From Sedimenticola selenatireducens (GTDB lineage Bacteria; Pseudomonadota; Gammaproteobacteria; Chromatiales; Chromatiaceae): a stretch of 64,000 bases of DNA. The notes beneath the pieces are model-generated. The model was not told the DNA's origin. It worked only from the letters and a program-made list of their open reading frames with translations, and did not search any database. The position numbers and the translations under genes were made by a program. Shown one piece after another: positions 27,620 through 51,865 of this stretch. The first letter of the stretch is position 1; the number at the start of each line of letters is the position of its first letter. The stretch spans positions 1 to 64,000 of the forward strand of contig NZ_VMNH01000007.1 of the NCBI RefSeq assembly GCF_007625115.1, read 5' to 3'.

Positions 27620-27707
27620 TGCGAGAGGCCATAAGCGCTCTATTTATAAGGTTTATATCGGCGCTGTTTTAGGCTATAGATCCTTTTAATGCAGGAAGGA
27701 GGATATG

Positions 27708-28178
27708 ATGAGTAATGATAGGCCCGTGAAGGTGAGCCGTTCATTTAAGCGGCCAGATGATGAGCAGTTACGCCGTGAGTTAACGGAGTTGCAATATCAA
27801 GTCACACAGCAGGAAGGGACTGAGCGACCTTTTCAGAATGAGTATTGGGATGAGAAACGTGTAGGACTTTATGTAGATGTGGTCAGTGGTGAACCATTGT
27901 TCTCATCCGTTGATAAGTTTGATTCGGGCACTGGCTGGCCAAGCTTTTTTCGTGTGGTCAACCCAGATCATATTGTTGAACGTAAAGACCGAAAATTGTT
28001 TATGACTCGTATCGAGGTACGCAGTCGTGAGGGTGACTCCCATCTAGGGCATCTGTTTGATGATGGTCCTGCGCCAACCGGACTGCGTTACTGCATCAAC
28101 TCAGCGGCGCTTCGATTTATCCCCAAGGAGGCACTTGAGACAGAGGGGTATGGAGAGTACCTGAAGCTTTTTGAGTAG
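27708..28178 (+). CDS. msrB: Peptide methionine-R-sulfoxide reductase
   Basis: A 156-residue MsrB, which reduces methionine-R-sulfoxide in proteins. Seen: [31 protein letters not shown], the motif [13 protein letters not shown], and the catalytic Cys in [14 protein letters not shown]. The two CxxC zinc-binding pairs of many MsrB proteins are absent ([16 protein letters not shown] has no Cys), so this is the zinc-free subtype, and no resolving Cys is obvious. AAGGAGG lies five bases before ATG 27708; an ATG at 27705 is too close. Transcribed away from phaZ, past the DnaA-box site. metZ, another methionine gene, follows. Confidence 0.95.
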
Positions 28179-28219: not shown

Positions 28220-28249
28220 TTGACAATAGGATGCCGACAGACCTAGTCT
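28220..28249 (+). promoter_or_regulatory. Sigma-70 promoter of the metZ leader
   Basis: TTGACA at 28220-28225, 18-base spacer, TAGTCT at 28244-28249. Transcription would begin near 28256, giving a leader of about 135 bases before metZ. Confidence 0.7.
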
Positions 28250-28257
28250 TACCCGAA

Positions 28258-28360
28258 GCGCCGATTTATCTCAGATTGCGGGCGCTATAAAAATGCGGCT
28301 AAAGCGAGGAATACCTGCTTTGGCTGTGGTAAGCCAGGCGGGTTTTTTTGTGCCCGCAAT
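28258..28360 (+). promoter_or_regulatory. Structured leader RNA upstream of metZ (attenuator or riboswitch candidate)
   Basis: Three mutually exclusive or nested foldings are visible. ATTGCGGGC (28275-28283) pairs perfectly with GCCCGCAAT (28352-28360), closing the element. Inside, GCGGCTAAAGC (28295-28305) plus AGG (28307-28309) pairs with CCT (28314-28316) plus GCTTTGGCTGT (28317-28327), a 14-bp hairpin with AATA loop. That hairpin uses the left half of an intrinsic terminator (28314-28349), so it is an antiterminator. The 5' arm also has an alternative partner: GCGCC (28258-28262) with GGCGC (28281-28285). The layout is that of a ligand-, tRNA- or translation-responsive attenuator controlling metZ. 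It does not fit the SAM-I, SAM-II, SAM-III or SAH consensus patterns I know. No short leader peptide rich in Met codons was seen. Confidence 0.65.
28314..28349 (+). terminator. Intrinsic terminator within the metZ leader
   Basis: CCTGCTT (28314-28320) and GGCT (28322-28325) pair with AGCC (28332-28335) and AGGCGGG (28336-28342), 11 bp with one bulged T and loop GTGGTA, followed by seven T. The metZ start lies 41 bases further on. Confidence 0.85.
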
Positions 28361-28390
28361 GTCTTTTTATTCAAAAGAAGGTTTTCTTAA

Positions 28391-29575
28391 ATGACTGAAT
28401 CGTACGATGACTGGGGCATGGCAACCCGGGCGATCAGGGCGGGCCACAATCGAACGGGGGAGGGTGAGCATTCAGAACCGATCTTCACCACCTCCAGTTT
28501 TGTTTTTAATAGTGCTGCAGAAGCGGCGGCCCGTTTCAGTGGTGATGCGCCAGGGAACATCTATTCGCGTTTCACCAATCCTACCGTGGCCTGCTTTGAG
28601 GAGCGCTTGGCTGCGATGGAGGGGGGAGCATCCTGCGTGGCGACCTCTTCAGGCATGGCTGCGATCCTGGCGACCTGTATGGCACTGTTAAAGTCTGGAG
28701 ATCACATCGTCTCTTCCCGCAGTATCTTTGGTACCACCAATGTGCTGTTTAATAAATTCATGGCGAAGATGGGCGTCACGACCAGTTATGTGGCGTTATC
28801 CAACTTGTCTGACTGGGAAGCGGCGATCCGTCCCGAGACGCGTATTCTCTATGCTGAAACACCCTCCAATCCCATTACCGAAGTGGGTGATATCGCGGCC
28901 CTGGCGGCTCTGGCCCATTCCCGTGGGTTGATTCTGGTAGTGGATAACTGTTTCTGTACACCGGCACTCCAACAGCCCCTGGCATTGGGTGCTGACATCG
29001 TCATTCACTCGGCGACCAAGTATCTGGATGGTCAGGGACGGTGTGTGGGTGGCGCAGTCGTTGGTGACAGTAAGTTGGTGGGTGAAGAGGTGTTCGGTTT
29101 CTTGCGCAGTGCTGGCGTCACCATGAGCCCGTTCAATGCCTGGGTATTTCTCAAAGGATTGGAGACGTTGCATCTTCGCATGAAGGCACACTCTGAAAAT
29201 GCGCTGGCACTGGCGCTCTGGTTGGAGCAGCAAGAGGCCGTTGAACGAGTGCATTACCCTGGTCTCAAGAGTCACCCTCAATATGAACTCGCTGCGCGCC
29301 AGCAACAGAGTGCGGGTGGCATCGTCTCCTTTGTGGTGAAAGGCGGGCGCGAACAGGCCTGGAAAGTGATTGATTCAACCCGGATGTTGTCAATTACGGC
29401 CAACTTGGGGGACACCAAAACCACCATTACCCATCCTGCCTCGACTACCCACGGTCGTTTGACCGATGAAGAGAAGCAGGCGGCAGGTATCGAAGAGGGG
29501 CTGATTCGAATCGCTGTAGGCCTGGAAGCATTTGATGATATTCAGCGTGATCTCCAGTCAGGTTTGATAGGCTAA
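28391..29575 (+). CDS. metZ: O-succinylhomoserine sulfhydrylase
   Basis: A 394-residue PLP enzyme of the Cys/Met metabolism family, converting O-succinylhomoserine and sulfide directly to homocysteine. Seen: AGHNRTGEGEHSEPIFTTSS, NIYSRFTNPTVACFEERLAA, the PLP Lys in DIVIHSATKYLDGQGRCVG, and the terminal substrate-binding SITANLGDTKTTITHPAST. Direct sulfhydrylation suits bacteria with abundant sulfide. AGAAGG lies nine bases before ATG 28391. A structured leader with terminator precedes it, and a methyltransferase gene starts three bases after its stop, so the two are translationally coupled. purF, the usual neighbour in many proteobacteria, is absent. Confidence 0.95.
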   Translation: MTESYDDWGMATRAIRAGHNRTGEGEHSEPIFTTSSFVFNSAAEAAARFSGDAPGNIYSRFTNPTVACFEERLAAMEGGASCVATSSGMAAILATCMALLKSGDHIVSSRSIFGTTNVLFNKFMAKMGVTTSYVALSNLSDWEAAIRPETRILYAETPSNPITEVGDIAALAALAHSRGLILVVDNCFCTPALQQPLALGADIVIHSATKYLDGQGRCVGGAVVGDSKLVGEEVFGFLRSAGVTMSPFNAWVFLKGLETLHLRMKAHSENALALALWLEQQEAVERVHYPGLKSHPQYELAARQQQSAGGIVSFVVKGGREQAWKVIDSTRMLSITANLGDTKTTITHPASTTHGRLTDEEKQAAGIEEGLIRIAVGLEAFDDIQRDLQSGLIG

Positions 29576-29578
29576 TCA

Positions 29579-30157
29579 ATGCAAGAGAAAGATCTGCTGG
29601 CCATGTGGAATCAGCGGCACACTGAGGCAGAGGGTCTGGGGCAGGTCGCCACGGTATTGGAGCAGAACAGTCATCTGATAGCGCCCCATTCAAGCGCACT
29701 GGATCTGGCCTGTGGCCGTGGCGCTAATGCGCTGTATTTGGCTCGCCTAGGTATGAAGGTCACCGCCTGGGACTTGTCTCCCGTGGCGATTGAACGACTC
29801 GATACGGCTGCCCACGCTGAAAATCTGATGCTGACGACAGCCGTGCGGGATGTCATAGCTATACCGCCGGAAACGGAATCTTTTGATCTGATTCTGGTCA
29901 GCTATTTTCTGGATCGGACGTTAGCTCCGGCCATTATTCGTGCTTTGAAGCCGGGGGGATTGCTCTTTTATCAAACCTATACTCAGGCCGCTGTCAGTGA
30001 TGATGGGCCGAGTTCCAGTCGATTTCGACTGGCTGACAATGAACTGCTCAAGCTGTTTGACTCCCTCAAGGTCAGGGTTTATCGGGAGGAGGGTTTGCTG
30101 GGTGATACACAGCAGGGCTGGCGTGACCGGGCGATGTTGGTCGCAGAAAAGGTTTAA
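29579..30157 (+). CDS. SAM-dependent methyltransferase, TehB-like
   Basis: A 192-residue class I methyltransferase. Motif I is ALDLACGRGANALYLARLG and is followed by KVTAWDLSPVAIERLD; the motif IV region is FDLILVSYFLDRT and post-motif LKPGGLLFYQTYT. The pattern is close to the TehB/thiopurine methyltransferase-like small-molecule enzymes. It starts three bases after metZ, a strong hint that it works on, or spares, a sulfur or methionine-cycle metabolite, but the substrate cannot be inferred further. Confidence 0.88.
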   Translation: MQEKDLLAMWNQRHTEAEGLGQVATVLEQNSHLIAPHSSALDLACGRGANALYLARLGMKVTAWDLSPVAIERLDTAAHAENLMLTTAVRDVIAIPPETESFDLILVSYFLDRTLAPAIIRALKPGGLLFYQTYTQAAVSDDGPSSSRFRLADNELLKLFDSLKVRVYREEGLLGDTQQGWRDRAMLVAEKV

Positions 30158-51498: not shown

Positions 51499-51544
51499 AA
51501 GCCCTTGTGCATTTTTGATCTTGCATTAAAATAGCCGACTCTGA

Positions 51545-51712
51545 TGGGTGCCCCTCGTGGGTTAAAAGGGAACAAGGTGAGTCATCCAGACAACTCCTTG
51601 ACTGTCCTCGCAACTGTAAGCAAGTAGTCCGGTCTCAACAAGCCACTGACAACCTGTCGGGAAGGCGACACCGGGTGATGATCTGCAAGTCAGGAAACCT
51701 GCCTCTCACGCG
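51545..51712 (+). promoter_or_regulatory. Cobalamin riboswitch
   Basis: The adenosylcobalamin-riboswitch pattern is present in order: GGGTGCCCCTCGTGGG, AAAAGGGAACAAGGTGAGTC, TCGCAACTGTAAGCAAG, CCACTGACAA, GGGAAGGCGACA, and the B12 box GCAAGTCAGGAAACCTGCC at 51685-51703. It lies 200 bases before btuB and will lower btuB expression when the coenzyme is abundant. Ends of the aptamer are approximate. Confidence 0.95.
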
Positions 51713-51865
51713 TCGCAATTCTATTGAACGGGGTATTCTGTAGAGCGGTCATCCGTTAGCTGGCGCATTCAAGCAGGCTGGAAAAGCCTGTACTTGTATG
51801 CAGTCCTGTTGTAGCCGAATCATCTTCGGTCCCTGCAGCATAAACAAGTCTCACTTTTCCGTCCT

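Follow-up and report, generated by a model that had tools for sequence, protein, structure and literature searches.

What kind of RNA precedes metZ in Sedimenticola selenatireducens, and does it belong to a known family? The leader lies between msrB and metZ in the window, the 64,000-nucleotide stretch of DNA that was analysed, and a preliminary description had presented it as an undescribed attenuator. Our analysis suggests that positions 28248-28349 are very probably a SAM-II riboswitch that represses metZ through premature transcription termination. The features discussed below are collected in Table 1.

Table 1 Positions of the leader elements, the neighbouring genes and the second element (window positions unless a contig is given)
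Feature	Position	Strand	Details
msrB	27705-28178		upstream neighbour of the leader, stop at 28178
Promoter	28220-28249	+	-35 TTGACA 28220-28225, 18-nt spacer, -10 TAGTCT 28244-28249
SAM-II (SAM_alpha, RF00521) riboswitch	28248-28319	+	Rfam match 26.1 bits, E=3.1e-4
P1 stem	28257-28286	+	AGCGCC 28257-28262 with GGCGCT 28281-28286
L1 third strand GAUUUA	28263-28268	+	U28265 and U28266 equivalent to SAM-contacting U10/U11 of SAM-II
Short P2a helix	28270-28308	+	CUC 28270-28272 with GAG 28306-28308, by sequence inspection
P2 pseudoknot	28275-28303	+	U28276:A28302, U28277:A28301, G28278:C28299, C28279:G28298, G28280:C28296
Antiterminator hairpin	28295-28327	+	GCGGCUAAAGC 28295-28305 with GCUUUGGCUGU 28317-28327, plus AGG/CCU
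Intrinsic terminator	28314-28349	+	stem 28314-28342, U-tract 28343-28349
Post-terminator strand GCCCGCAAT	28352-28360	+	complementary to aptamer 28275-28283 and to the terminator 3' arm
metZ, O-succinylhomoserine sulfhydrylase	28391-29575	+	controlled gene; TIGR01325 557.4 bits (cut-off 510.05)
Class I SAM-dependent methyltransferase-like gene (TehB/Methyltransf_25)	29579-30157	+	starts 3 bp after metZ
Second SAM-II element	C14:136795-136867 (= L003:996-1068)		RF00521 25.8 bits, below cut-off

An Rfam scan at gathering thresholds called nothing in the leader region. When the thresholds were relaxed, RF00521 (SAM_alpha) was far ahead as the top match there, with an E-value of 0.00137 when the whole genome was searched. 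The gathering score of RF00521 is 36 bits, and the default scan misses the aptamer because its 26.1 bits fall below this score. We note that the gathering score is an annotation cut-off and not a structural definition, and that the leader seemed new solely because it scores under that cut-off. The sub-threshold match assigns the RNA to a known family, and together with the shared binding pocket it leads us to reject a novel riboswitch class.

The leader contains the SAM-II core, GAUUU ... AUUGC ... GCUAAA, folded as an H-type pseudoknot of P1 and P2, and the earlier statement that no known SAM riboswitch core could be matched does not hold. The alternative pairing noticed at 28258-28285 is real and corresponds to P1. 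The pseudoknot between 28276-28280 and 28296-28302, which identifies the RNA, had been overlooked. In the RF00521 alignment, the two strands of P2 are AUUGCG at 28275-28280 and CGGCUAAA at 28296-28303. The P2a helix is found in most close relatives, and the AUUU of the third strand is invariant in alignment A1. SAM is contacted in SAM-II by U10, U11, A20, U21, U22, U46, A47, and A49 (PMC11508383). By alignment of the cores, the equivalent positions are U28265, U28266, A28275, U28276, U28277, U28300, A28301, and A28303, and all eight nucleotides are present. The A20 position is C in many homologs, as it is in the Rfam consensus. By the same equivalence, the pocket would be lined by U28300, which faces the SAM adenine, and by A28301, A28303, and A28275. 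The extra pair G28280:C28296 seems to match one predicted for SAM-II by Barrick and Breaker, a Watson-Crick pairing of the final loop nucleotide with a position further downstream (PMC2258182). The whole leader is more stable than its shuffled versions (z=-2.7), with 2 of 200 shuffles equally stable.

A second SAM-II element of the genome has its own terminator and sits ahead of metK and ahcY. Two sub-threshold matches, each in front of genes of the methionine/SAM cycle, are hard to credit to chance. A third RF00521 candidate (C15:67588, 16.1 bits) lies inside an apparent ftsH-like coding sequence and was set aside as a chance match.

The ahcY gene downstream of metK is a reason to consider that RNAs of SAM-II architecture here might recognise another ligand such as SAH, as SAH riboswitches often control ahcY according to Leyn et al. 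2014 (PMC4239095). However, the nucleotides that give SAM-II and SAM-V their specificity for SAM, namely the U:A.U triple and the U pairing with the adenine (PMC6061858), have unchanged equivalents in the leader. In addition, no SAH-type riboswitch family was matched in Rfam at E<=10, and metZ and metX as targets accord with feedback by SAM. We therefore consider recognition of another ligand highly improbable. SAM-V (RF01826) also has to be weighed, as it has the same pseudoknot core as SAM-II and binds SAM in a nearly identical way, the two classes sharing their pocket logic (PMC6061858). SAM-V differs in having its own P3 helix and in controlling translation by sequestering the Shine-Dalgarno sequence, whereas the leader has a terminator platform, contains no P3 hairpin, and gives no SAM_V match at E<=10. 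We give very little credence to an assignment to SAM-V, and the SAM-II reading, in which the region 28248-28319 would bind SAM, is preferred.

A DNA search recovered homologs of the leader in each of the eight congeners examined, as well as in many further genera. A model, R1, was built from 29 homologs; in the family, 43 of 116 genomes match it at E<=1e-4. RF00521 itself matched 136 of 369 sampled genomes of the window's class at E<=0.01 and none of 14 control genomes, and only 30 of the 369 exceed its cut-off, so that most SAM-II riboswitches in this class are missed by the Rfam cut-off. Clear SAM-II elements of other genomes match R1 reciprocally. Canonical SAM-II sequence occurs in some members of the class (L176, P1 CGUGG/CCACG), which bridges both forms. 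RF00521 scores elsewhere are 22.1 in the alphaproteobacterium Oceanicaulis and 29.9 in Microvirga, and values of up to 48.5 occur among sister elements of the window's class. We also scanned named genomes with a pattern that fixes part of the core and hence gives breadth rather than frequencies. Among the matches listed, the core is carried by Thalassospira, Bradyrhizobium, Bosea, Microvirga, and Oceanicaulis in the alphaproteobacteria, by Novimethylophilus, Nitrosospira, Thauera, Ramlibacter, and Herbaspirillum in the betaproteobacteria, and by Halomonas, Thiogranum, Chromatiales, and Legionellales in the gammaproteobacteria. Two pattern matches, L072 and L085, are not matched by R1 and were regarded as chance. 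Tandem SAM-II-like elements about 95-145 nt apart were seen in L184, L194, L198, L207, L079, L120, L121, and L025/L049, and the second member of such pairs is often more divergent.

Covariation among the relatives agrees with the proposed fold. In 66 homologs, 98.5% of the 725 cells of P1 and P2 are paired, compared with 91.1% after shuffling and 25-53% after sliding by 1-3 columns. Double-sided changes occur at 7 of 11 pairs, including all six pairs of P1. P2 is paired in 100% of its cells; the pair G28280:C28296 is replaced by A:U in three homologs and by C:G in one, and the other four of its five pairs are invariant, which gives no covariation signal and is neutral. Because the alignment was fitted to P1 and not to the pseudoknot, the G:C, A:U, and C:G forms of this pair provide independent support. 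Compensatory changes are thus found in P1 and in one pseudoknot pair.

The genes behind these RNAs point to control of methionine and SAM metabolism. Open reading frames downstream of 163 homologs fell into clusters that include 71 of metZ/metY type, 28 of metX, and 11 of metK, and smaller clusters include metF, metN, and metH/bhmT. Cluster representatives were checked with NCBIfam, and about one quarter of the picked reading frames fell in small unnamed or mis-framed clusters. The same core therefore precedes metZ, metX, metK, metF, metN, and metH/bhmT-type genes across alpha-, beta-, and gammaproteobacteria, and the leader ahead of metZ and the second copy ahead of metK-ahcY share this gene context.

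The promoter TTGACA/TAGTCT that had been proposed for the leader is present, and both hexamers are conserved in the metZ leaders of congeners that were compared and in L016/L018, with a spacer of varying length. A generic sigma-70 scan did not list this promoter because its -10 element agrees with the consensus at just three of six positions. Since the hexamers are fixed while the spacer varies, the leader RNA probably has a start of its own near 28256 and is more than a mere msrB terminator. A plain intrinsic terminator of msrB with chance complementarity upstream is suggested by its place downstream of the msrB stop codon, where it could also stop read-through from msrB. However, the conserved promoter lies between msrB and the element, and the aptamer is kept ahead of metZ, metX, and metK in many genera with covariation in P1 and P2. 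The promoter and the conservation lead us to reject this explanation, to which we attach almost no weight, and leave the SAM-II riboswitch as the preferred reading.

The 14-bp hairpin and the terminator of the preliminary description are both present, and the following analysis supports its proposal that the leader is sensory and that its terminator and antiterminator exclude each other. The antiterminator hairpin contains 11+3 pairs, is part of the minimum free energy structure of the free leader, and is incompatible with both the pseudoknot and the terminator. One of its strands, 28298-28305, coincides with the 3' strand of the pseudoknot, and the partner at 28317-28324 lies in the 5' arm of the terminator. 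The terminator alone has z=-3.8, and none of 200 shuffles was as stable. An arm of the form CTTTRGC (CUUURGC) between the aptamer and the U-tract is found in 44 of 111 distinct terminated leaders and is missing in the other 67; shuffles predict about 0.3 occurrences in 117, and flanking control stretches gave 2 and 0. Covariation of the antiterminator was tested at its one free position, where 21 of 44 leaders are paired against 17.4 expected, which is not significant (279 of 2000 shuffles reach this count).

We assessed the switch in an equilibrium calculation that leaves out pseudoknot energies and co-transcriptional kinetics, and mimicked SAM binding by keeping seven bases of the aptamer 3' strand from pairing. 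Across 43 leaders with the arm, the mean terminator probability rose from 0.43 to 0.84, compared with 0.42 when the same constraint was placed on the third strand. For the window leader, blocking 28298-28304 raised the probability from 0.40 to 0.85. In this model the leader behaves as expected for a ligand-dependent choice between terminator and antiterminator, consistent with the conserved arm.

These observations suggest the following mechanism. Transcription would begin near 28256. At low SAM, the aptamer 3' strand GCUAAAGC would pair with GCUUUGGC, which lies in the terminator's 5' half, and this pairing would block the terminator and allow expression of metZ. At high SAM, the ligand would bind the H-type pseudoknot and keep GCUAAAG in helix P2, so that the terminator at 28314-28349 could fold and transcription would end before metZ. 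From its sequence, the leader is thus predicted to be an OFF-type terminating SAM-II riboswitch. At metZ of S. meliloti, a SAM-II riboswitch has likewise been predicted to terminate transcription. An sRNA whose size fits this prediction was seen there and was more abundant in rich medium, a condition in which the authors assume SAM to be high (PMC9373788).

The 9-bp closing stem described earlier is also present, as ATTGCGGGC at 28275-28283 and GCCCGCAAT at 28352-28360 are perfect complements. Its downstream strand belongs to a TGCCYGC motif that follows the U-tract in most gammaproteobacterial metZ-type leaders, and GCCYR directly after the U-tract is found in 45 of 117 leaders against 4.9 expected. 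The GCCCGCAAT strand is transcribed later than the termination decision. It might act as a third regulatory strand that pairs, after polymerase has moved beyond the terminator, with GCGGGC of the aptamer or with the terminator 3' arm, and thereby lock the read-through RNA in the ON state or stabilise it, an idea that we consider rather unlikely. Covariation with the terminator 3' arm is unsupported, as 17 of 117 leaders are fully complementary compared with 13.9 when strands are reassigned among leaders, which is not significant; the control terminators for this test were 25 from the loci retrieved. We found no description of a third regulatory strand in SAM-II leaders in the literature surveyed.

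Assignment of the controlled gene as metZ is also supported by NF006003 (691 bits, cut-off 522) in the NCBIfam check. The methyltransferase-like gene behind it matches PF03848 (55.5 bits, cut-off 20.4) and PF13649 (53.5 bits, cut-off 27), and is probably co-transcribed with metZ under the same SAM switch. Elsewhere in the window, a cobalamin riboswitch at 51529-51720 (111.8 bits) lies ahead of a TonB-dependent outer-membrane receptor-like reading frame, with a periplasmic binding protein-like reading frame also downstream, and this region is likely a vitamin B12 uptake locus.

The element is ordinary in kind: the class is known, the target gene is known, and papers from 2007 and 2009 had already noted SAM-II in gammaproteobacteria (PMC2258182, PMC2704228). 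It shares with RF00521 the H-type pseudoknot, the GAUUU third strand, the AUUGC/GCUAAA pocket, the contact nucleotides, and the methionine-gene targets, and with the SAM-II leader at S. meliloti metZ the terminator expression platform predicted there (PMC9373788). It differs from the RF00521 model in P1, which is GCGCC/GGCGC here and CGUGG/CCACG in the model, in the extra pseudoknot pair, which is usually G:C in these leaders and not A:U, in a shorter P2a, and in a score under the gathering cut-off. A rebuilt model would mark many methionine genes as SAM-controlled, would probably provide a ligand for an orphan element called metXZ, and would correct the orientation of RF02424.

RF02424 (Bp2_287) is filed as a "Burkholderia sRNA", and its model matches the antisense strand of SAM-II leaders at about 30-40 bits (L003, L049). 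Matches were seen at L003:977-1110 (-), L049:295-422 (-), and L136:298-447 (+). Of the 24 places where it matches in the class, most are shared with RF00521 on the opposite strand, and all matches stayed below the gathering score of 70. Judging from the leaders matched here, RF02424 looks like a SAM-II leader in reverse complement.

The metXZ RNA element of betaproteobacteria, described by Leyn et al. 2014 (PMC4239095), has six conserved regions, a pseudoknot formed by regions 1:4 and 2:6, and a terminator before metX or metZ, and is presented there without a ligand or a link to SAM-II, in which it differs from the leaders described here. It precedes metX in most genomes and metZ in Methylophilales and Nitrosospira, and our survey of genes downstream of the SAM-II motif reproduces this distribution. 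Compared by that description, the metXZ element agrees with the SAM-II leaders in taxon, gene, and architecture, and is probably the same RNA. Two betaproteobacterial leaders, L112:5165-5242 and L071:4108-4188, score 52.0 and 50.4 bits with RF00521 and are probably metXZ elements.
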